From Opitutus sp. (lineage in GTDB: Bacteria > Verrucomicrobiota > Verrucomicrobiia > Opitutales > Opitutaceae): a stretch of 64,000 nt of DNA. Position 1 is the stretch's first letter; every line of letters begins with the position of its first letter. The notes below the pieces were generated by a model. The model did not search any database. It was not told the DNA's origin and was given only the letters and a program-made list of their open reading frames with translations. This document shows positions 1,194 to 58,955 of the stretch, piece by piece. The stretch spans positions 124,001-188,000 of the forward strand of contig JANPZY010000001.1 in NCBI GenBank assembly GCA_024707325.1. Reading direction: 5' to 3'. The translations under genes were made by a program, and so were the position numbers.

Positions 1194-1235
1194 GAGAGAA
1201 GAACGTTCCCGATTGCGGCTCAGTCCGCACACGGT

Positions 1236-1405
1236 CGTGACGCGGTTCGCACCATGTCCCGACTCAGGCCGCACTTGGGCTCGACGTGGTGCGCACTCTG
1301 TCGCGACCCGGACCGCACCTTGGCGCGACCTTGTCCGCACTGGGGCTCGAGTCGGGACGCACTCGGTCCCGACTCGGTGCGCACACTGTCCCGAGTCGGT
1401 CTGCA
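1236..1405. repeat. 22-bp tandem repeat array A, 3' of kdgK
   Basis: From 1260 the sequence runs in strict 22-bp register (starts 1260, 1282, 1304, 1326, 1348, 1370, 1392); a looser 24-nt unit precedes it at 1236. The plus-strand consensus begins CGACCCGGTGCGCAC and ends in a variable 7-nt tail. The kdgK stop codon (complement 1406-1408) lies inside the last unit, and the register continues at 1414 in the kdgK coding end. No intrinsic terminator is seen after kdgK. Together with the MITE-like element this fills most of the 1001-1405 gap. Confidence 0.85.
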
Positions 1406-2503
1406 TCAGCGCACGACCCGGGCGCTGCCGCCCGCGATGAGTTTTTCCACTTCCTTGCGCGTCGCCATCGAGGTGTCGCCGGGCGTGGTCGAAGCGAGTG
1501 CGCCGTGCGCCGCGCCGTAGTCCACGGCTTTTTGCGCATCGTCGAATTCAAGGAAACCGAACTGCAGGCCCGACGCGAAACTGTCGCCGCCGCCGATGCG
1601 GTCGAGGATCTCGAGTCCAGGATACGCGCGGCTCTCGTGGAATTTTCCGTCGTGCCAGAGGATCGCGCTCCAGTCGTTCTTGGTCGCGGTGATCACGCGG
1701 CGGAGCGTCGTCGCGGCGACCTTGAAATTTGGATACGCCTGCACCGCGGTGCCGATCATGCGCTTGAACGCATCGGCCTCCACGTGCGCGAGGTTGGCAT
1801 CGACGCCCTCGACTTCGAAACCAAGGCACGCGGTGAAATCCTCCTCGTTGCCGATCATCACGTCGACGTAACGCGCGATCTCACGGTTGACCTCGCGCGC
1901 CTTCGCGAGTCCGCCGATGGACTTCCAGAGCGAGGGACGGTAATTGAGATCGTAGGAGACGATCGTGCCGTGACGTTTCGCGGCCTGCACGGCCTCGATC
2001 GCGAGCGCGGCCGTGCTCTCCGAAAGCGCGGCAAAAATTCCGCCGGTGTGAAACCAGCGCGCGCCGAGTTTGCCGAAAAGATGATCCCAATCGAAGTCGC
2101 CGGGTTTGAGCTGCGATGCGGCCGAGTGTCCACGATCGGAAACACCCACGGCACCGCGCACACCGAAACCGCGCTCGGTGAAGTTGAGCCCGTTGCGCAC
2201 GGTGCGGCCGATGCCGTCGTCGTCGCGCCAGCGGATGAAATCCGTGACGACGCCGCCCTGCATGATGAAATCCTCGATGAGGTGCCCGACCTCGTTGTCG
2301 ACGAGCGCGGTGCACACGGCGGTTTTCAAGCCGAAGCACTTTCTCAGACCGCGCGAGGTGTTGTATTCGCCGCCGCCTTCCCAAGCGGTGAACGAACGCG
2401 CGGTGCGGATGCGGCCCTCGCCGGGATCGAGGCGAAGCATCACTTCGCCGAGGGAAATCTGTTCGAAAGCGCAGGAACCGCGGGGACGAAGAGGAAGCGA
2501 CAT
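1406..2503 (-). CDS. kdgK: 2-dehydro-3-deoxygluconokinase (PfkB family)
   Basis: A 365-residue PfkB-family sugar kinase. The C-terminal signature IGGGDSFASGLQFGF carries the GxGD motif with the catalytic aspartate, and the N-terminus has the sugar-binding GEVMLRLDPGEG stretch. It phosphorylates 2-keto-3-deoxygluconate to KDPG, the last step before aldol cleavage. The start at complement 2501-2503 was preferred over an upstream in-frame ATG at 2569 because it leaves only 8 nt after the eda stop and matches the family N-terminus. Neighbouring eda and the ExuT-like transporter fix the pathway as uronate degradation. The final codons (RVVR) fall in the register of the downstream 22-bp array, so the C-terminal tail may have been altered by repeat invasion. 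Confidence 0.9.
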   Translation of the reverse strand: MSLPLRPRGSCAFEQISLGEVMLRLDPGEGRIRTARSFTAWEGGGEYNTSRGLRKCFGLKTAVCTALVDNEVGHLIEDFIMQGGVVTDFIRWRDDDGIGRTVRNGLNFTERGFGVRGAVGVSDRGHSAASQLKPGDFDWDHLFGKLGARWFHTGGIFAALSESTAALAIEAVQAAKRHGTIVSYDLNYRPSLWKSIGGLAKAREVNREIARYVDVMIGNEEDFTACLGFEVEGVDANLAHVEADAFKRMIGTAVQAYPNFKVAATTLRRVITATKNDWSAILWHDGKFHESRAYPGLEILDRIGGGDSFASGLQFGFLEFDDAQKAVDYGAAHGALASTTPGDTSMATRKEVEKLIAGGSARVVR

Positions 2504-5887: not shown

Positions 5888-8800
5888 TCAACGCTGAATG
5901 GGAATTTCCACCCGCACGCGACGGAGGTTCGGATTGGGCCGCAGGCTCAGCACGCCCTCAAGGCTTGCAGGCACGCTGGCACTCGTCGGCGCCTGTAGGA
6001 CATAAGTGAGAGTCACACGATCCTTCGGCGCCTGGCTCCAGGTCCACGCAAGCAGCCCCGTGTCACCAGGAACCGGATACAAACGCGCGCCGCCCATGCC
6101 GCCGGAGATGTATCTCCAGCCCGCTGGCAGCAGGAGTTCCTGCACGAGTTCGTCGGCCGAACCGGCGACACGCAGAGTCTGGGTGACAATCACCACACCG
6201 CCGCCGACGGACTGGGCGGTCGCAGAAACATCGACGACGGCCAGCTCGATCGTCGGACCGTTCTTCGTGCCGGAGCGTTCGATCGCGACCGCATCGTAGG
6301 CGCCCGCGTCGGTGAGCTTCACCGCGGAGAGTTTCAGTTTCGACGACGTCGCACGCGCGAGCGGCGCGTCGTCGCGGAACCATTGGAAGAGCGCGGTGCT
6401 GCCACCGACCTGCGCGTCGAGCGTCACGGCGTTGCCGACTTTCGCCAGTCGATCGAGTGAAGCGCTGCCCGAGCTGCCGGACGTTCCGCTCGATTTCGGT
6501 GCGTCGGCCGACTTGGTCGTCACGTTCGACTTCGCCTTCGCGGTCACCGCGACACGCACGGTGAACGTGGTGCTGGCGGAGAGTTTTCCGTCGCTCACCG
6601 TGATCTTGATTTTCGCCGAGCCGGTGCGATTCGTCGCCGGGGTCACCGTCACAGTGCGATTGGCGCCGCTTCCGCCCAACACGATCCGGGAGGTCGGCAC
6701 GAGAGTCGTGTTCGAGGAGGACCGCGTGAGTTTGAGTTTCTTCGTCGAGGTTTCGGCGTCGCCGATCTTGAACTTCAGCTTCGCGGTGCGGCTGTTCTTC
6801 GCGATCGTTTGATCCGCGATCTTGGTGATTGTGGGCGCGTCGTTGACGGCGGTCACCTTGACCTTGAACGACTCGGTCGCGGTGAGAGAGCCATCGCTCA
6901 CCTTGATCTTGATCGTGGCCGTGCCGGACTGGTTCTTCGCGGGCTTGATCTTCACCGTGCGCTTCGAACCGCTGCCGCCGAGCACGATGCCCGACGTGGG
7001 AATGAGTTCCTTGTTCGAGGAGCTGCGCGTGAGCTTGAGCTTCGATGCGCTCGTCTCCGCGTCGCCAATGGTAAACGAAATCGTCTTCGTTTTGTCTTCC
7101 TTGATCGTCTGATTCGCGATCGCACTGATCGTCGGAGCATCATTCACCGCCTTGACCGTGACGGTGAACGAGCGGCTCGCGGAGAGTGTCCCGTCGCTCA
7201 CAGTGAGCTTGATCGTGGCTTTGCCCGACTGGTTCTTGGCGGGCTTGATCGTGACCGTTCGCTTCGAACCCGATCCGCCCAGCACGATCCCCGAGGTGGG
7301 AATGAGTTTCGTGTTCGAGGAGCTGCGGGTGAGTTTGAGCTTCGACGCGCTCGTCTCCGCATCGCCGATGGTAAACGAAATCGCTTTCGAGGAGGTGTCT
7401 TCCTTCAACGACAGATTGGCGATGGCGCCGATCGTAGGCGCGTCGTTCACCGCGCGCACGGTGACCTTGAAGCTTCGTGTCGCCGTCAATTTTCCGTCGC
7501 TCACCGAAAGCTTAACGGTCGCCGTGCCGGAGAGATTTTTCGCGGGCGTGATCTTGAGCGTGCGCTTCGAGCCTGAGCCGCCCAGCACGAGACCGGACGT
7601 GGGCAGCAACGTCGTGTTCGACGAACTGCGCGTGATCGTGAGTCCGCTCGATCCCTGCTCGGCATCGCTCACGGTGAAAGAGACGGTTTTCGGCGTATCT
7701 TCATCGAGCGTCTGATCCGCGATCGTGCCGATCGTCGGCGCGGTGTTGGGCGGAGCCACGGAAAGCCCCATCGGCGCGGAAACTGCGGCGCCGCCGGAGT
7801 TCAGGAGCACCGCGCGATATTTCCAGCCGTTCATCGCGGTGGTCACGCCGGTAAGCGTCAGCGTCGAAGTCGACGTGCCGGAGTAGTGGCCGCCGTCGGA
7901 GAGATCTTCCCACTCGACGCCATCGCGCGAAAACTGCCAGTGGATCGCGGTCGCACCGCCAGCCACGATGGAAAATTGCGCGCTGTTGCCGGCCAGCGTC
8001 GGACCCGCGGCGGCCGTTTTCACAACGACGGGCGCGTCTTCAACCGGCGCAGGCGTGACGACGCTCATCATCATCGGCCAGCCGTTATACACCTGCCAGA
8101 GATCGTCCGATCCGCCGATCGGCAGCGCGGCGTTGTCCGCCGACCAGCCCTCGCCGGAGCCGGTCGCGAGCTCGCTCAAATACCACCACTGCCACTGTTC
8201 GTCGTCCTCGTTGGAACCAGGCAACACCACCCAATACGACCCCGGCTCCAGCAACGGCGCCTCTTCCTCCGGCGCAAACACGACGTCCGCCGTCTGCGTC
8301 GCGCTCATCGCCGTGACCTGCGTGAAACGCGCGATCGACGCGCCCGGCCGGCCGTTGACGTCGATGCACAGATCGACCGCGAGCGATCCGCTCGAGCCCT
8401 CGCGCGTGAGACGTAGGATAATTTCGGATACGAGGCTCTGACGCGAGAGTTGGAATTTCTGCGCGAGCGACGTCGAGCGATCCATCATGCCCTGCGGTTC
8501 GCCGTGCATTGTCGTGAATGCCACCGGCGTGCCGCGTCGAAGCGTGCGATTGTAGGTGTCCGCCACCCAGAGATAGCCCTGTCCATCGATGGCTGCGGCG
8601 GCTGGTCCGCTGAACTGCGCGGCTACGCCGACGCCATCCGCCGAACCCGCGACGAACTCGGTGCCGCCCACAACCTCGGCGTCTCCGTCCGGCGAAAGTC
8701 GCACGATCGCGTGGCTCGACCACGAGGTCGCATAAACATCGCCCGCTGCTCCAACCGAAAGCTGCTGCGGACTCCACAGGAGATCTGCGCCGGCGGTCAC

Positions 8801-10938: not shown

Positions 10939-11033
10939 GAAGCTCACCTTCCGCTGCGCGTTACTCGTTTCGCCCCCAGTGTCCGCGATTTCCCTCTCCC
11001 GTGATCGATCTCGATCGTATGCGCCCCTCGTCG

Positions 11034-11182
11034 CGACCATGTCCGCACTGGGTCTCGACCGTGTCCGCACGTTGGCTCGACGCGGTGCGCACCTTGGCTC
11101 GACCCGGTCCGAACAATGGCGCGGCCCGGTGCGCCCTCAGGCGCGAACCGGGCCGGACATGGGCTCGACTGAGGCGCCGCGC
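11034..11182. repeat. 22-bp tandem repeat array B, 3' of RCC1-type gene
   Basis: Units start at 11034, 11056, 11078, 11100, 11122, 11144 and 11166 in exact 22-bp register. The best match is 11078, which begins CGACGCGGTGCGCAC and ends TTGGCT. The stop codon of the RCC1-type gene (TAA, complement 11183-11185) lies in the last unit. Orientation relative to the upstream gene is the same as in arrays A, C, D and E. Confidence 0.85.
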
Positions 11183-14100
11183 TTACTTCAGCGGGATCTC
11201 AACCAGCAGCTGTTTTTCGCCGCCGGGCTGTTGGGCGCGGAGCACGCCCTCGAGCTTCGCGGGCAGCACCGTGCCAGCGGGGAGGCGCAGCGTGTAAGTC
11301 AGCGTCAGCGGTTTTTGCGGCGGCTTCTTCCACGACCACGCGAGGAGTTTCTTGTCACCGGATTTCGGATACGTGGCGTCCTTCAGCGCGGTGCCTTCCT
11401 TGTAGCTCCAGCCGGTCGGCAACAGGAGTTCGAGCGTGAGATCGGACGCGTCGCCCGCCACTGCGAGCTTTTGCGTGATCGTGATCGTCTTTCCACTGCT
11501 GCCGGCACGTGCCGAGGCGGAGAGATCGACCACGGCGACTTCCGCCGTGCGGCTCGTGGTCGTGCCGCTGCGGCCGGCGAGGACGGCGTCGTAGCCGCCG
11601 ACGTCGGTGAGTTTGATCTTCGAGAGTTTCAGCTTCGAGGCGGTCGCGCCCTCGACGGGCTGGTCGTCGCGGAACCACTGCACGGCCGCCGAGGAGTCGC
11701 TGGTGCGCACTTCAAGCGTCAGGTCGTCCCCGACTTTCACAAAGCGATCTTCCACTTGCTGCGTGATGATCGGCCCGGCCGAGGCCACGGCCTTCGTCTT
11801 GCTGGCGGCCTGCACCTTCACTTTGAACTTCATGCTCTTCTTCTTTTTGCCGTCGCTGACGGTGAGCGTGATCGTCGCCGTGCCCGTTTGGTCTTTGGCC
11901 GGCGTGATCTTCACCGTGCGATTCTTGCTGCTGCCGGCGAGCTTGATGCCCGAAGTCGGGATCAGCTTCTTGTTGGAACTCTTGCGCGTGACTTTGAGTT
12001 TCTTCGACGAGGTCTCCACGTCGCTCACCTTGAACTTCAGCTTCTTGGTGCTGCTGTTCGCGGTGATCGTCTGATTCGCAATCTTCGAGATCGTCGGTGT
12101 GTCGTTCACCGCCTTGAAATTCACTTTGAAGGTCAGCTTCTTCGATTTGCTGCCATCGCTGACCGTCACGGTGATTTTGACGGTGCCGTTTTTGTTCTTC
12201 GCCGGTTTGATCGAAAGCGTGCGTTTCGAGCCGGTGCCGCTGAGCTTCAGGCCGGATTTGGGCACGAGCTTGGTGTTGGAACTCTTGACCGTGACCTTGA
12301 GCTTTTTGGTGGAGGTCTCGACGTCGCCAATCGTGAACGTGACTTTCTTCGTCTTATCCTCAGTCGCCGACTGAGTCTTGATCTTCGAGATCGTCGGCGT
12401 GTCGTTGACCGACTTCACGGTTACGGTGAAAGAGCGCGTCGCCGTGCTCACGCCGTCGGTGACCGTGAGCGTGATCGTGGCGGTGCCGTGTTTGTTTTTC
12501 GCCGGCGTGATCTTCACGGTGCGCTTCGCGCCGGAGCCACCGAGCACGATGCCCGCGGCGGGAACAACGCTCGTGTTGGAGCTTTTGGCGGTGATCGTGA
12601 GCTTGCTGGTGGACGTCTCCGCGTCGGCGATCGTGAAGGGAATCGCCGCGGTCGATTTGTCCTCGGAAATACTCTGCGCGGCGATCGCGCTGATCGTGGG
12701 CGTGGCGTTGACGGTGATCTTCACCGTGGAACTGGTGACCGTGCCGGCAGCATTGACGGCTTCGAGGCGGTAGCTGCCGGTTTGCGCGGTGACCGAATAG
12801 GGCAGCACGAGCGTGGGATTGCGCGCCCAAGCGATGGGTTGGCCGTCCTTATACCATTGATACGCGATCGGCTGCGTGCCGGTTACGGTGGCGGAAAGCG
12901 TGTGCGCTTTTCCCGGGACCACGATCGCGGCCACCGGCTGCTTGGAAATCTTCGGCGCCGTGCCGTGACCGGGCGTCTGCAAATACACGGCCCAACCATT
13001 CGCCGAGCCGGATACGTCGAGCACGCCGCCGGCGACTTCCCGCGCGCTGCCGAGCGTGCCGTTGACGCCTTCGCGGTAACGAAGAATCCCATCCGATCGC
13101 AGATAAAGCGTGCCCTCACCCGTGCCCGCAAATGCGGTCGGCGCAGCGTCGACGAGCGCGGCCGGGCCCGTGGAATTGTGCCAGCCATCGCCGCGCGTCC
13201 AGAGTTCGTTGTTGGTTTTCTGAATGAGCTGCTGGCCCGTGTTCGCGAACGCGGCCTTCACACCGGTCTCGAGTTGCACGGGGGCCGTAACGGCGTTGGC
13301 GACGGTCGCGCCCGGAAGAAGTCCGGCAGCGGTCGAACCCATGCCCCACAAGGTATCGTCGCTGCGCACGAAGAGCAGATGATTCGCCGCCGCGGAAACG
13401 GCGACGACCTGCTCCGCGATTTTCACGTCGGCAGTGCCGGCGCCGAACTCGATCTTGCCGGCGGTTTTTCCATTTCCCCACAGGGTGCCGTCGCTTTTCA
13501 GGAAAACATAATAGCCGATGCCCGCGCCCGCCGAGACGACGTCGGAAGCGAGCTGCGTGGCGGTGTCGTTGGCGGCGAGGCGCCATAGCGTGCCGTCGCT
13601 TTTGAGGAAGAGATGGATGCCTGCGTTGCTCGCGACCCACGCGCGCGTGACGTCACTGACGTTCGCAACTTTAGTCACCGCCGCGCCCTTCTGCCGCCAG
13701 AGCGTGCCGTCGCTTTTGACGAGAAGATTGGCGTGCTCGGCCGCCGTGCCGGCAGAAATCACGTCGTCCGCGAGCGTCGGCAGAGTCGGCGTCTGTTGGG
13801 CATCGCCGAGCTGTCCGTAGTAATTAAGGCCCGCGCCATACATCACGCCTTTCGTCGTGACGTAGAGCGTGAACTGGCTCGTCGCGACTTCGGCGACGCC
13901 GGTGGTGATCTTCGCGGGCGTGTTGCGGATCTGGTTGAAATTGGGCTCCGCGAGCGCGCCATCCACATCGGTGCCCATGCCCCACAGGGAGCCATCTTTC
14001 TTGATGAACAAACTCTGCCCCGCGCCCGCATCTGCGCGCACGACATCGGTGGCGACCTGCACCGGCGTGGTGCGCACGGAATACGAACCGTCGCCGAGCT

Positions 14101-14923
14101 GCCCCGTTTCGTTGCCGCCCATCGCCCAGAGCGTGCCGTCCGTTTTCACGAACAATCCATGGCGCATGCCGCACGAAACGGACGCGACACCCGTCGCGAC
14201 TTGCGCCGGCGTGCTGCGATTGGTGCGCGTGCCGTCGCCGAGCTGGCCGACGAAGTTTTCGCCGGTCGACCAGAGCGTGCCATCGCTCTTCAGGAAGTAG
14301 GTGAAATTGGAGTTGGGTCCTGTCGCGATCCCGACCACGTCGTCGGCGATCTTCACCGGCGAAGGCCGGTTCGTCTTTGTGCCGTCGCCGAGCTGGCCGA
14401 CCAAATTTCCGCCGACGCCCCAGAGCGTCTTGTCGGTTTTGATGAACAAGGTGTGCGTCATGCCCGCGCTCACGTCGGTGACGTCGGTCGCCACCTGCAC
14501 CGGAGTGGAGCGCGAAGTGGTCGTGCCGTCGCCAAGCTGGCCGACGTGGTTGGCGCCCATCGCCCAGAGCGTGCCGTCGGTTTTCACGAACATCGTGTGC
14601 TCCATGCCGGCGGAAACTTTGGCCACCTGGGTCGCCACCTTGACGGGCTTGGTGCGCGTAACCGTCGTGCCGTCGCCGAGGCGACCATGCTCGTTGAAAC
14701 CCATCGTCCACAACGTGCCGTCGGTTTTGATAAATGCCGAATGCGCCACGCCCGTCGCGACGAGTTTGACCGAACCCGCGATCGGTTTCGGTTCATGCAA
14801 ATTCACCAGAAAACCGGACCCGCCGAACGGCTGCGCCAGTCCCGGAGTGTCAGCCGAGAACCCGCGAGACGCGGAGAAAAGAAGCGCAACAGCACATGCC
14901 AGATGCAGCCCATTCGTGCGCAT
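11183..14923 (-). CDS. Giant secreted protein: RCC1-type propeller repeats, Ig-like and about 97-aa tandem repeats
   Basis: A 1246-residue protein with signal peptide MRTNGLHLACAVALLFSASR. Residues about 45-650 hold many RCC1-like blades of the form FIKTDGTLWTMGFNEHGRLG, some divergent (FLKSDGTLW only). Next come an Ig-like domain (YQWYKDGQPI), three tandem repeats starting N(A/D)TPTIS with AGIVLGGSGAKRTVKITPA-type cores, a further Ig-like domain (VQWFRDDQPV), and a C-terminal domain of about 100 residues ending LLVEIPLK. The repeats and C-terminus are paralogous to those of the NHL-type protein downstream, while the propellers differ. It is probably exported. Its binding partner cannot be inferred. 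It has its own 3' array, so it is probably a separate transcript. Confidence 0.8.
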   Translation of the reverse strand: MRTNGLHLACAVALLFSASRGFSADTPGLAQPFGGSGFLVNLHEPKPIAGSVKLVATGVAHSAFIKTDGTLWTMGFNEHGRLGDGTTVTRTKPVKVATQVAKVSAGMEHTMFVKTDGTLWAMGANHVGQLGDGTTTSRSTPVQVATDVTDVSAGMTHTLFIKTDKTLWGVGGNLVGQLGDGTKTNRPSPVKIADDVVGIATGPNSNFTYFLKSDGTLWSTGENFVGQLGDGTRTNRSTPAQVATGVASVSCGMRHGLFVKTDGTLWAMGGNETGQLGDGSYSVRTTPVQVATDVVRADAGAGQSLFIKKDGSLWGMGTDVDGALAEPNFNQIRNTPAKITTGVAEVATSQFTLYVTTKGVMYGAGLNYYGQLGDAQQTPTLPTLADDVISAGTAAEHANLLVKSDGTLWRQKGAAVTKVANVSDVTRAWVASNAGIHLFLKSDGTLWRLAANDTATQLASDVVSAGAGIGYYVFLKSDGTLWGNGKTAGKIEFGAGTADVKIAEQVVAVSAAANHLLFVRSDDTLWGMGSTAAGLLPGATVANAVTAPVQLETGVKAAFANTGQQLIQKTNNELWTRGDGWHNSTGPAALVDAAPTAFAGTGEGTLYLRSDGILRYREGVNGTLGSAREVAGGVLDVSGSANGWAVYLQTPGHGTAPKISKQPVAAIVVPGKAHTLSATVTGTQPIAYQWYKDGQPIAWARNPTLVLPYSVTAQTGSYRLEAVNAAGTVTSSTVKITVNATPTISAIAAQSISEDKSTAAIPFTIADAETSTSKLTITAKSSNTSVVPAAGIVLGGSGAKRTVKITPAKNKHGTATITLTVTDGVSTATRSFTVTVKSVNDTPTISKIKTQSATEDKTKKVTFTIGDVETSTKKLKVTVKSSNTKLVPKSGLKLSGTGSKRTLSIKPAKNKNGTVKITVTVSDGSKSKKLTFKVNFKAVNDTPTISKIANQTITANSSTKKLKFKVSDVETSSKKLKVTRKSSNKKLIPTSGIKLAGSSKNRTVKITPAKDQTGTATITLTVSDGKKKKSMKFKVKVQAASKTKAVASAGPIITQQVEDRFVKVGDDLTLEVRTSDSSAAVQWFRDDQPVEGATASKLKLSKIKLTDVGGYDAVLAGRSGTTTSRTAEVAVVDLSASARAGSSGKTITITQKLAVAGDASDLTLELLLPTGWSYKEGTALKDATYPKSGDKKLLAWSWKKPPQKPLTLTYTLRLPAGTVLPAKLEGVLRAQQPGGEKQLLVEIPLK

Positions 14924-15089: not shown

Positions 15090-15221
15090 CGGCCATGTCC
15101 GGACCTTGGCTCGACCCGGTGCGCACCTCGTAGCGACCCCGTCCGCACATTGTCCCGACCCGGGGAGGACCCTGGCTCGACGCAGTGCGCGCTGCGGTGC
15201 GCCGCAGGCCGAACCATGGCA
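15090..15221. repeat. 22-bp tandem repeat array C
   Basis: Units start at 15090, 15112, 15134, 15156, 15178 and 15200; the clearest (15112) begins CGACCCGGTGCGCAC. It lies about 120 bp beyond the nth stop and upstream of the RCC1-type gene. The remainder of the 14924-15340 gap has no recognisable gene; a small inverted repeat (GCCC...GGGC near 15064-15080) is visible just before the array. Confidence 0.75.
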
Positions 15222-29545: not shown

Positions 29546-29652
29546 CGACGCGTTCCGCACCTTGCCGCGATCCGGTCCGCACCTTGGCTCGACTTGGGAC
29601 GCACTCAGTCCCGACTTGAGCCGCACTCTGACGCGACTCGAGCCGGACAGGG
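29546..29652. repeat. 22-bp tandem repeat array D, 3' of xdh
   Basis: Units start at 29546, 29568, 29590, 29612 and 29634. The second begins CGATCCGGTCCGCAC and ends TTGGCT. The xdh stop codon (TGA, complement 29653-29655) is the end of the last unit. The region lies between the convergent bicupin and xdh genes, and no intrinsic terminator is present. Confidence 0.85.
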
Positions 29653-32600
29653 TCACGGCACGAGGCGTTGCTGGATCGCGCTGAGGATCGCTTCGCCGGT
29701 GGCGGGAGACGCGAGCGCGACTTCGCCCTGACCGCCGAACGAAGCCACCGCATCGCGAATCGCTTCACGCACGCAGAACGCCAGCATCAGCGGCGGTTCA
29801 CCCACGGCCTTGCTGCCGTGAATCGTGTTCGGCTGATTCGCTTTCGGCAGCAGCGTGACATTGAACTCGATCGGCGCGTCGCTGATCGCGGGGATTTGAT
29901 AGGTGCTCGCGCTGTGCGTGAGCAGCCGGCCTTTGGCGTCCCACTTCAACTCTTCGCTCGTGAGCCAGCCCATGCCTTGCACGAAACCGCCCTCGATCTG
30001 TCCGCGGTCCACACCGGGGTTCAGCGAATCGCCGACGTCGTGCACGATGTCCACGCGCACGACGCGCGTCATGCCGGTGTAGCCGTCGACTTCCACTTCC
30101 GCCACAGCCGCGCCGCATGCGAAGTAGTGAAAGGGACGACCCGACGCGGTCGTCCAATCCCAGTGAATTCCGGGTGTCTTGTAATAACCCGTCGCTGCGA
30201 GACTGATGCGCTCCGCGTAGGCGCGGCTGCACAGTTTTCCGAACGGCACCTTGTTCTGCGTCTCGCGCTCGCAGGCGAAACCGTCCGCGAACTCCACCTT
30301 GTCCGCCGCCACGCCGAGCATTTCGGCGGCGATCGGCCGCAGTCGCTCGCGCAACTCCGCACACGCCGCCGCGACCGCCGCGCCGTTGAGATCCGCGCCG
30401 CTCGATGCCGCGGTCGCCGAGGTGTTGGGCACTTTGTCGGTGCTCGTCGGCATCATGCGAATGGCGTCGGCAGTGAGGCCGAGTTCGCGCATCGCGACGC
30501 CCACGATTTTGGTGTGCAGGCCCTGTCCCATCTCGGTGCCGCCGTGGTTCACCTGCGCGGTGCCATCGGAGTAAAGCAGCACATACGCGCCTGCCTGATT
30601 GTAGTGCGTCAGCGTGAAGGAAATGCCGAACTTCACCGGCGTGACCGCAAGGCCGCGCTTGATCCGAGCATGTCCGCGATTCCATGCGTCGATCCGCGCG
30701 CGACGCTCGGCGAACTTCGAATCCGCCAGCACGCGTGTCCAAATTTCCTGGATACGGTTGTCGCCGATGTCCTCGAGATAATGCGTGCGGTTGGTTTCGC
30801 CGGTGCCGCGGTAGAGATTGCGCTGGCGCACGACTTCCGGCGGCAAACCGGTGCGACGCGCGACGCGGTCGATGATTTCCTCGATCACCATCAATCCCTG
30901 CGGTCCACCGAAACCGCGAAACGCCGTGTGCGAGGTCACGTTGGTCTTCGCCGCGCGTCCGCTGAAATCGACCGCGGGAATATAATAGGCGTTATCGAGA
31001 TGGAAGAGCGCGCGGTCCACGATCGGTTGCGACAAATCGAGCGACCAGCCACCGTCGCCGGTGAGCTCCACCTTCACCGCCTGCAACAGGCCGTCGGCGT
31101 CGTGTCCCACCGAGAATTTCGCGTGAAACGGATGCCGCTTGCCCGTGAGACTCATATCGAGATCGCGGTCGAGCTGCACGCGCACCGGCCGACCGGTCTT
31201 CGTCGCCGCGAGCGCGACCAGCGCCGCCCACGCGTTGCCCTGTGTTTCCTTGCCGCCGAAACCGCCGCCCATGCGGGGTGACTGCACGACGACTTTGTGC
31301 CGAGCGCAGCCGAGCACTTCCGACACGATCGCCTGGATCTCCGAGGGATGCTGCGTCGAGGAGTAGATCTGCACCCCACCATCGTCCGCGGGCTCGGCCC
31401 ACGCGGCATGCGTCTCGAGATAAAAATGCTCCTGTCCGCCAAACGAAAACTCACCGTCGAAGCGCAACGGCGCACGAGCGAGCGTGGCCGCGCAATCGCC
31501 GCGCCGGATCGCGTGCGGATCGGTGTGATAACTGCCGGCCGCGATCGCCGCAGGTAATCCGACGATCGCAGGAAGTTCTTCGTAGTCGATCTCCACCAGC
31601 GCCGCGGCCGCGCGACAGTGCGCAATCGACTCGCCGACAACCACGGCCACGACCTGCCCGTGAAACAAAACTTCGTCGCGCGCAAGGAGCGGTTCGTCGT
31701 GGCGCGCGGGACCGGTGTTGTTTTCGCCGGGAACGTCCTCGGCCAGCAAAACGGCGACCACGCCCGGCGCATGGCGGGCTTTGCTGATATCGCGGCGGAG
31801 GATCTTCGCACGCGCGTGCGGCGACATCACGGGCCAGAGCGTGAGCATCGGGCGGCGCTGCGCGATATCATCGACGTAGCGCGCGCCACCCGTGACGTGA
31901 CCAACTGCACTTTCGTGACGCAGCGTGCGCGTGGCGTCGTCGATCGGCCACGGCTCGCTGCCGGCAAACTCCGGCTTCGCATCGATCGCGAGACTGGCGT
32001 CGCCCGCGACGAACTTTTCCCACAGCGCAACAACGAGCGCTTTGCGATACCCGGCGCGCGCGCGCACGTCGGAGATCGGCGAAAACTCTTCGCGCAACGC
32101 GTCGCGCACCTCGTCGAGCGATTCCGCGAGCGTTCGTCCGAGCAAACGCCGCTCCGCCTGCAACGCACGCATCGGCTTCACCGCCACGCCACCGTAGGCG
32201 ATGCGCGCGTGCAGCACGACGCCCTGCGCATCCGTCTCCACGCAGAACGCGCCGGCCACGATGCTGATGTCGAGCTCACGGCGGTGGGACACTTTCTGAA
32301 ACTCTGTGCGCCGCACACCGCCGGTCACCGATGCGATCCGCGGCAGCACGATCTCCTTCATCACTTCGTCGGCCCGGAGCTGCGTCTGCCGGTAACCGAC
32401 GAAAAATTCGGAGAGCGGCACCGTGCGTTCGCCGCCCGGACTCGCAAGCACGACGGAGGCATCGAGCGTGAGCAGCACCGGCGCGCTGTCGCCAATCGGC
32501 GAGGCGGTCACGAGATTGCCGCCGAGCGTCGCGCGGTTGCGGATCTGCCGCGACGCAAACACCGAGAACATTTTCGCGAGCGAGGGATACTCCCCGGCGA

Positions 32601-39413: not shown

Positions 39414-39884
39414 ATGAGTCACGAAAACTACATGCGCGAAGCGATCCGTCTGGCCGAGCAAGGCATGCGCGGGGGACGCGGCGGACCGTTTGGCTGCGTG
39501 GTCGTGCGGCGCGGCGAGATCGTCGGGCGCGGCAACAATCGCGTGACCTCCACCAACGACCCCACCGCGCACGCCGAAGTCGTGGCGATCCGCGACGCCT
39601 GCGCGAAGCTCGGCACATTCCAGCTCGACGATTGCGAACTCTACACCAGCTGCGAGCCCTGCCCGATGTGCCTCTCCGCGATTTACTGGGCGCGCATCCC
39701 GTCGATTTTCTACGGCAACACGCGCACCGACGCTGCCGCGATCGGCTTCGACGACGATTTCATTTACCAACAAGTCCCGCTCCCGCCCGAGCAGCGCACG
39801 CTCAAGATGGAGCTCTTCCTCCGCGACGAAGCGCAAGTTGCCTTCCGCGAATGGGCGGAAAAAACCGACAAGGTCCGTTACTGA
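39414..39884 (+). CDS. guaD: Guanine deaminase (CDA superfamily)
   Basis: A 156-residue zinc deaminase like B. subtilis GuaD. It has HAEVVAIRDA (zinc His and catalytic Glu) and CEPCPMCLSAIYWARI (zinc cysteines). It converts guanine to xanthine, the substrate of the XDH at the far end of the divergent operon. tRNA adenosine deaminase is less likely because of the purine context and the C-terminus. The stop codon is followed at once by array E. A shared divergent promoter region at 39317-39413 could couple it to the purine operon. Confidence 0.88.
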   Translation: MSHENYMREAIRLAEQGMRGGRGGPFGCVVVRRGEIVGRGNNRVTSTNDPTAHAEVVAIRDACAKLGTFQLDDCELYTSCEPCPMCLSAIYWARIPSIFYGNTRTDAAAIGFDDDFIYQQVPLPPEQRTLKMELFLRDEAQVAFREWAEKTDKVRY

Positions 39885-40047
39885 CCCGAGTCGGGACAAA
39901 GTGCGGCTCGAGTCGGGACTGAATGCGGACCGGGTCGAGCCATTGTCCGGACCGGGTCGAGCCAAGGTGCGTCCACGGTCGAGCCAAGGTGCGGACCGGG
40001 TCGCGACACGTTGCGGACCGGGTCGGGACCACGTGCGGACAAGAGCT
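39885..40047. repeat. 22-bp tandem repeat array E, 3' of guaD
   Basis: This is the cleanest array. Starting one nucleotide after the guaD stop, 22-nt units end at 39893, 39915, 39937, 39959, 39981, 40003, 40025 and 40047. In gene orientation the core is AGCCAAGGTGCGGAC followed by CGGGTCG, the reverse complement of arrays A-D, which follow minus-strand genes. It fills most of the gap to clpP. Confidence 0.88.
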
Positions 40048-40097: not shown

Positions 40098-40748
40098 ATG
40101 CATTTCGCCAATCTTCAGCCCGGACTCGCCGCTCCCGCTCCCCGTCTCGACGACGACGATGACGACGAGCAGGAAGACAAGCAGGCGAAGAAGAACGCGG
40201 CCCCGGTCGCGATGCTGATCCAGAAGAAGTTTCTCGAGCAGCGGAAAATTTTCCTGTGGGGCGCCGTCACCGACGAATCCGCCAAGGATCTCACGGAGAA
40301 GCTCCTTTATCTCGAAGCCACCGATCCCGGCAAAGAGATCACGTTTTACATCAACTCGCCCGGCGGCTCCGTGACGGCCGGCATGGCGGTTTACGACACG
40401 ATGAAGCTCATCACCTCGCCGATCACGGTCGTGGTCACGGGCATGGCCGCGTCGATGGGTTCGATCCTGCTCTCCGGTGCGCCGAAGGGTCGCCGTCTGC
40501 TCTACCCGCACTCGCGCGTGTTGATTCACCAGCCGCTCATCTCGGGCCGCATGGTGGGTCCGGCGACCGACATCAACATCCAGGCCAAGGAAATGGAAAA
40601 GCTCCGCCAGGAGTTGAACCAGATCCTCGCCGATGCGTCCGGACAGCCGATCGAGCGCATCAATCAGGACACCGATCGCGATTTCTATCTCAACGCCAAG
40701 GAAGCGATCGCCTACGGCCTCGCGGACCGGATCGTGGACAAGGTCTGA
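40098..40748 (+). CDS. clpP: ATP-dependent Clp protease proteolytic subunit
   Basis: A 216-residue ClpP. ITFYINSPGGSVTAGMAVYD precedes GMAASMGSILL (catalytic Ser) and YPHSRVLIHQP (catalytic His); the Asp lies in INQDTDRDFYL. The N-terminus carries an acidic stretch (LDDDDDDEQEDKQ) not found in E. coli ClpP, which may be a propeptide or linker. Start at ATG 40098. clpX is not adjacent. The gene ends in a clear intrinsic terminator. Confidence 0.93.
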   Translation: MHFANLQPGLAAPAPRLDDDDDDEQEDKQAKKNAAPVAMLIQKKFLEQRKIFLWGAVTDESAKDLTEKLLYLEATDPGKEITFYINSPGGSVTAGMAVYDTMKLITSPITVVVTGMAASMGSILLSGAPKGRRLLYPHSRVLIHQPLISGRMVGPATDINIQAKEMEKLRQELNQILADASGQPIERINQDTDRDFYLNAKEAIAYGLADRIVDKV

Positions 40749-58845: not shown

Positions 58846-58955
58846 CAACCCGGTGCGGACCTTGACGCGACCCGGTGCGGACATGGTCGCGACCGTGTCT
58901 GCACATTGTCCCGACCCGGTGCGCATCATGTCCCGACTCGCGCCACACACGGGCG
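58846..58955. repeat. 22-bp tandem repeat array F, 3' of a PepSY-TM gene
   Basis: Units start at 58846, 58868, 58890, 58912 and 58934; the second begins CGACCCGGTGCGGAC. It begins 4 nt after a stop codon. Unlike the other arrays, its orientation relative to the upstream gene is inverted. The rest of the gap to 59073 shows no gene and probably holds the promoter of the next receptor. Confidence 0.82.

Follow-up and report, generated by a model that had tools for sequence, protein, structure and literature searches.

Degenerate 22-bp tandem arrays dispersed at gene ends in Opitutus sp.: candidate docking sites of a putative sequence-specific protein

We found that the genome of Opitutus sp. contains hundreds of degenerate tandem arrays, most of them between genes, in which 22-bp units drawn from one shared profile abut in strict register. 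The reading that we favour, with a confidence slightly better than even, is that the arrays are cooperative docking sites of a putative sequence-specific protein of this lineage and serve as dispersed chromosome-organising (anchor or boundary) sites at gene ends.

The window, a stretch of 64,000 nucleotides, corresponds to C3:124001-188000 of a genome of 4,042,972 bases in 4 contigs. A sequence-only reading of the window had claimed six 22-bp arrays. All six were present where it had placed them, five on the plus strand and the one at 39885-40047 on the minus strand. The arrays and the neighbours discussed below are:

1216..1413, plus strand: array A, nine units in 22-bp register in a gap between convergent genes (earlier given as 1236-1413)
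11012..11176, plus strand: array B, seven units (11012-11165, the first weak) plus a half unit (earlier given as 11034-11187)
11183-14923, minus strand: RCC1/Ig-domain gene, with array B just beyond its 3' end
15090..15221, plus strand: array C, six units, the last two weak, in a gap called divergent whose right-hand gene call is a short ORF
29546..29655, plus strand: array D, five units in a convergent gap, sharing 3 bp with the 3' end of a minus-strand gene
39414..39884, plus strand: deaminase gene (dCMP_cyt_deam_1), left of array E
39885..40047, minus strand: array E, six strong units at 39894-40025 with weaker units at the ends
40098..40748, plus strand: Clp protease gene (ClpP), right of array E
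58846..58955, plus strand: array F, five units, 4 bp beyond the stop of a PepSY_TM gene

Array E begins immediately after the TGA of the deaminase gene. When scored with a profile built from the 36 window units of the arrays, these units gave about 9-30 bits each. Four or five sites of at least 10 bits were found in the window outside the arrays, compared with 3-9 in five Markov-shuffled windows, and the six arrays are far above chance expectation. Two other repeats were noticed in the window: a 303-bp tandem repeat in a long minus-strand ORF (6914-7642) and a 144-bp repeat in the RCC1-repeat protein gene (14379-14728).

A genome scan with the unit profile, proposed in the sequence-only reading, gave hundreds of loci, beyond chance hits outside the window. 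In the whole genome an exact one-unit pattern matched 638 times (6 for the reversed control) and a two-unit pattern allowing at most 2 mismatches 1,084 times (0 for the control). Reading 1.264 Mb directly (31% of the genome) yielded 106 arrays, a count that leaves out eleven lone units of the first 864 kb; by extrapolation there are ~339 arrays genome-wide, or about one per 12 kb on average. Copy number ranged from 2 to 12 with a mode of 7, 82 of the 106 arrays having 5-8 units, and 612 units scored above 14 bits compared with 9 on the reversed sequence. We also used a motif-free lag scan that omitted lags divisible by 3. The main recurring class was lag 22 together with 44, 88 and 110, and on C3 the peaks at lags 88 and 110 all fell at arrays. 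The sole other recurring class, at lags 64-68, came from a CRISPR-like array elsewhere in the genome; the remaining lags gave single matches, except for two at lag 128. This long CRISPR-like array lies outside the window and spans ~10 kb (G000:C3 about 659500-670000), with repeats about 64-68 bp apart that end in GGATTGAAAC.

The unit consensus is C G A C n n n G T S C G S A C n n n G K C n. It is built of two 11-bp halves that resemble each other, S-S-A-C being followed in both by three less constrained bases and then G-K-S (SSAC NNN GKS). The whole unit is almost symmetric about its centre, so that many units score on both strands. In 253 units, columns C1, G2, A3, C11, G12, A14, G19 and C21 were about 90-97% conserved, and in the first 864 kb strong word-like dependencies were found within the unit at columns 20-22, 6-7 and 9-10 (e.g. 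GGCT, GTCC and GTCG at 19-22). Half units tend to open and close the arrays. The register often continues into the adjoining stop codon, where TGA can replace the CGA of the unit. The claims of an exact 22-bp register and of units without spacers were both borne out: 492 of 500 neighbouring unit pairs lay at multiples of 22 bp and 454 of the 500 distances were exactly 22 bp, with register unbroken in 103 of the 106 arrays. Indels are common in intergenic DNA, and loss of register appears to have been purged from the arrays.

Adjacent units were 64.3% identical and units of different arrays 62.7%, in agreement with the suggestion that units diverge as much within arrays as between them. Further, 400 of 418 units had distinct sequences, and ungapped whole-array identity (mean 0.636, maximum 0.827) was close to that of arrays rebuilt from shuffled units (0.628 and 0.828). 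All these comparisons cover the first 864 kb, in which 67 of 69 arrays are in register and were used. That adjacent units are hardly closer than distant ones and that most units are distinct is unlike a copied repeat family; the units look as if drawn independently from a single profile. Kinship among units would be expected of a satellite grown by recent local duplication or of an element spread by recent copying; none was seen. A neutral tandem satellite was rejected on the ground that neighbouring units were no closer than distant ones.

We then placed the arrays relative to genes, which were called by a simple codon-usage script, so that their edges are approximate. Among the 106 arrays, 52 lay in tandem gaps, 33 in convergent gaps, 10 in divergent gaps and 11 inside called ORFs. 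An array was found in 33/143 of the convergent, 51/482 of the tandem and 10/157 of the divergent candidate gaps (convergent against divergent, P 5e-5). Within tandem gaps, 26 of 52 arrays were no more than 30 bp from the upstream stop and 3 of 52 equally close to the downstream start; 25 of the 33 arrays in convergent gaps, and 51 of all 106, were within 30 bp of a stop. TGA accounted for 30 of the 35 stops lying 6 bp or less from an array, compared with 707 of 1,144 among all stops (P 0.002). With respect to tandem genes, 22 arrays had the same orientation and 30 the opposite one. Relative to the closest gene 3' end no more than 60 bp away the numbers were 21 and 39 (P 0.027), a mild antisense bias.

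Closely spaced arrays were scarce. For the 94 gap arrays, 1 distance between gap centres was below 3 kb and 16.5 were expected under a null that draws equal numbers of gaps at random by class and does not model transcription-unit ends. On C1 there were 0 such spacings against 5.4 expected (P 0.0017), and on C3 there was 1 against 11.1 expected, with 0 of 3,000 draws as low. When arrays in ORFs were included, 2 of 104 spacings were shorter than 3 kb and 11 shorter than 5 kb; a run of 864 kb gave 2 spacings below 3 kb against 13.7 expected. Spacing was regular on C1 (CV 0.49, null 0.91). On C3 it was not more regular than chance save for the short-range scarcity (CV 0.88, null 0.97, P 0.23). The scarcity of short spacings might partly reflect how transcription-unit ends are spaced. 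The largest array-free stretch is 66 kb long (G000:C3:473775-539895); its G+C content of 59.5%, compared with 63.5% for the C3 stretch, suggests a later-acquired genomic island. Replication-linked polarity, as in KOPS/Chi-type motifs, was also considered. Among the matches listed on C1 and C3, orientation looks regionally one-sided (e.g. mostly minus on C3 beyond 1.9 Mb); in the stretches tested, a runs test was not significant (P 0.31 and 0.08).

The sequence-only reading had stated that no array is inside a gene body. This held in the window, where edges merely overlap gene ends, and failed genome-wide, where 11 of 106 arrays lie in called ORFs and two were verified inside conserved genes. 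Three of the eleven are in ORFs of 288-336 bp. Two arrays (C1:100858 and C3 relative 247320) are near the called start, which may be wrong in both ORFs, and the row at C3 relative 478511, with two strong units only, may be chance. The array-bearing esterase ORF at C1:302179 had no homologue at E 1e-15, and a 2,021-residue ORF with seven strong units had no Pfam domain. The two verified cases are:

L174:12709-12796: four-unit array on conserved coding sequence of a glycerate kinase (386 residues)
L054:14803-14912: five-unit array on conserved coding sequence of an M48 peptidase

The glycerate kinase aligns without gaps across the array region with 8 homologues and retains the invariant residues. 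In the M48 peptidase, the array units score 7, 21, 29, 28 and 13 bits in the source genome, and the homologous codons range from -0.6 to -30 bits in Opitutus terrae and two further relatives, the second unit being not scorable there because of a gap. Two extra codons at the array are missing in six more distant homologues, and the proteins stay alignable. The closest homologues (96% and 88%) have both extra codons and most of the array-encoded residues, and their genomes therefore probably carry the array too. Judged by the M48 peptidase, none of the family genomes searched is closer than O. terrae. Proteins P0001 and P0121 (96%), P0122 (88%) and P0002 (78%) nevertheless indicate that public data include close relatives. 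The two in-gene arrays were most likely written in place by substitution, and substitution toward a binding-site profile in a working gene implies selection on the sites.

For intergenic arrays the evidence differs. We compared 119 gene pairs that are adjacent both in the source genome and in a sampled 800 kb of O. terrae. All four conserved pairs with an array were longer than in O. terrae, by +264, +131, +179 and +196 bp for arrays of 132, 110, 154 and 176 bp, while 0 of the 115 pairs without an array were longer by 100 bp or more. In the first of the four, the extra DNA exceeds its 132-bp array. The extra 131-264 bp indicate that the intergenic arrays came with a gain in length and not by substitution alone.

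Among the genomes searched, the arrays were restricted to the source genome or nearly so. O. terrae, the sole other Opitutus among the 252 family genomes searched, had no match to the two-unit pattern in its whole genome. It gave 10 one-unit matches, where the control gave 8, and, in 800 kb, 8 units against 12 on the reversed sequence. The motif-free lag scan found no peak at lag 11 or 22 in these 800 kb and no array at either lag in 80 loci of relatives (628 kb). For the other relatives the whole-genome searches used the array consensus only, so that a differing consensus is excluded only in the DNA covered by the motif-free scan. The two-unit pattern was absent from 250 of 252 family genomes, the exceptions being the source genome and G060, with one weak match, and from 386 of 387 phylum genomes, the single matching one being the source genome. 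A further profile (R1), with 55 candidates scored per genome, had matches in 6 of 115 relatives, source genome included: at least 105 in the source genome and 1-2 weak matches (E 0.001 or worse) in each of the other five. Such a lineage restriction fits any recently evolved system.

The Clp protease gene to the right of array E served as bait for 80 Opitutaceae loci, in 24 of which it is within 2 kb of the deaminase gene. The gap between the two is 213 bp in the source genome. In the 24 relatives it is 44-101 bp in twelve, 182 and 191 bp in two and 987-1,924 bp in ten, and array E is absent from the corresponding loci. The match in G060, a member of another genus of the family, lies at L051:3973-4070 and is a four-unit 11-bp array of GACTTRGTCC plus one base. 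It adjoins a 12-bp array, GTGACTGGTGCC, and recalls a half unit of the Opitutus sp. arrays; it may be an unrelated cousin.

Several results bear on whether the arrays act as RNA. Words 8-11 and 19-22 looked reverse-complementary (AGCC/GGCT, GGAC/GTCC), and an RNA hairpin was considered on this basis and rejected, the conditional counts being not above shuffles. Complementary word pairs were not in excess in a test for palindromic covariation (8 of 104 in the best candidate class, shuffled mean 10.8). Folding was weak on both strands of three arrays (z-scores -1.3 to -2.2), and no Rfam match at E 0.1 was found in 501 bases around array E. Terminator-like sites, called by a simple hairpin finder, were found beside 12 of 33 arrays in convergent gaps (43 of 102 other gaps) and beside 14 of 51 in tandem gaps (65 of 402 other gaps); as this is about as frequent as in other gaps, the terminator reading was rejected. 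The use of both orientations, the lack of covariation, the ordinary folding, the lack of an Rfam match for array E and the coexistence with terminators argue for action at the level of DNA.

No named bacterial repeat of this form had come to mind in the sequence-only reading, and searches of known families with array E or its consensus likewise returned no meaningful match. Array E had no match among plasmids and a single chance match among phages (E 0.5), and the two-unit pattern had none in viral contigs. The arrays fail a defining test of every repeat family tested. The units abut directly, without the unique spacers of a CRISPR. Homology across the whole element, as in a MITE or IS-borne repeat, was not found, array-array identity being at the shuffled level. 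The R6K plasmid has 22-bp iterons, and plasmid iterons are like the Opitutus sp. arrays in being contiguous direct repeats of ~22 bp, set at two helical turns in groups of 5-8. Unlike iterons, which are near-identical direct repeats, the arrays number hundreds, are chromosomal and are far more degenerate (adjacent units 64% identical). No Rep_3 initiator accompanies them: the genome gave 0 matches, and the same search was positive in 2 of 14 control genomes. Like REP/BIME elements, the arrays are dispersed, intergenic (95 of 106 outside called ORFs), often at gene 3' ends and present in hundreds of copies. REPs are small palindromes, mostly of 20-50 nt, in the cited part of PMC12306157, whereas the Opitutus sp. 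arrays are direct and in register, some of them in genes, with no sign of copying and no palindromic hairpin unit with compensatory change.

Five explanations were weighed. The strongest rival holds that a repeat family, mobile or copied and of a REP/BIME-, MITE- or satellite-like kind, spread in the lineage, expanded in tandem and then decayed. Net insertion at four of four intergenic pairs (+131 to +264 bp, with 0 of 115 pairs without an array reaching +100 bp), the lack of array E in relatives, and edges that touch the stop codon, with TGA in 30 of 35 stops within 6 bp, all speak for it. We nevertheless consider it unlikely: arrays resemble one another about as much as shuffled units do, adjacent units are no closer than distant ones, two arrays occupy homologous codons in conserved genes, 492 of 500 steps stay in register, and mobile DNA offered nothing better than the phage match of array E at E 0.5, with no match to plasmids for that array or to viral contigs for the two-unit pattern. 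Gyrase or another topoisomerase might instead dock at the arrays, as at E. coli BIME-2, where gyrase wraps 11-bp phased arrays, 110-200 bp long, downstream of genes. We find this improbable, since gyrase is near-universal while the arrays are lineage-restricted, and since their base identity goes far beyond a G/C phase in specificity. In length, helical phasing and position at 3' ends the arrays do resemble the extended gyrase motif, which, according to the cited part of PMC6379681, has phased 10-bp G/C variation, with cleavage sites enriched in BIME-2 and downstream of operons.

Operator arrays of a large regulon, through which one transcription factor would control the neighbouring genes, are very unlikely. 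The sites are specific and look cooperative, as operators would, but they are rare in divergent promoter gaps (10/157) and sit nearer 3' ends: of the 52 tandem arrays, 26 are at most 30 bp from the upstream stop and 3 come that close to the downstream start. We give marginally less credence still to transcription terminators or 3'-UTR RNA elements. The position at gene ends, the modest folding z-scores (-1.3 to -2.2 on both strands of three arrays) and the mild antisense bias (39/60) would suit them; against them stand the use of both orientations, terminator-like sites about as common beside arrays as in other gaps, no covariation and no Rfam match around array E.

The docking-site reading comprises three steps. 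A putative sequence-specific protein of the lineage would bind the 22-bp sites as DNA. Its binding would be cooperative along the array, two helical turns per unit, with proteins touching on one face. The arrays would then serve as anchor or boundary sites at gene ends, in nucleoid or topological organisation and not in single-gene control. We infer all three, protein binding, cooperativity and the nucleoid or topological role, and hold the organising role to be less certain than cooperative protein binding. The exact 22-bp register (two helical turns) argues for proteins contacting along one face. A repeated protein on one DNA face had already been suggested from the sequence, and the register, the exchangeable units and the arrays on coding sequence speak for DNA sites bound by a protein. 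Placement at gene ends, away from divergent promoters, together with few close pairs, fits organising sites better than operators. Against the docking-site reading, the orientation bias at gene 3' ends (21 against 39) is not what one would expect of a purely symmetric DNA site, and the binding protein is putative, Rep_3, the one candidate family sought, being absent. The spacing on C3, no more regular than chance beyond the dearth of close pairs, and the length gain at intergenic arrays also count against it.

Known DNA-binding systems offer partial parallels. Repeats of parC are 11 bp long, and BldC and ParR-parC act at promoters or one centromere, unlike the ~339 Opitutus sp. arrays across the chromosome. 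To our knowledge Noc, SlmA and MatP use single sites and no arrays, and these are not placed at gene ends. The likeness to BldC and ParR-parC is cooperative binding to direct repeats, putative for the Opitutus sp. arrays; the cited parts of the respective papers describe BldC (PMC5859096) and ParR (PMC9426499) as coating such repeats. Noc, SlmA and MatP recognise sequence-specific dispersed chromosomal sites for organisation and division, as set out in the cited parts of PMC4726725 and PMC3116907. The Opitutus sp. sites are likewise dispersed over the chromosome and possibly of similar service, but they are in arrays at gene ends. A search of the open-licence literature found no fitting printed precedent.

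A bolder claim, which we put forward only tentatively and hold to be doubtful, is that ~339 arrays arose de novo for a lineage-specific organising protein, mostly >3 kb apart and point-mutated even into conserved enzyme genes, and so form a domain-boundary system undescribed in bacteria. The usual explanation of dispersed bacterial repeats is copying; here hundreds of arrays have a profile and an exact 22-bp register in common without sign of descent from one another, and in two genes the array was composed within existing codons. Together this suggests that selection for a protein-DNA lattice has been strong, recent and genome-wide. Should that be so, the marking of chromosomal domains in a bacterium could be approached directly from sequence, and the genus would offer a natural example of the birth of a new architecture system.

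As a minor observation on base composition, GGCC was scarce in the units in 1.264 Mb, with 37 occurrences in arrays against 199 expected and 7,862 against 12,641 in all.
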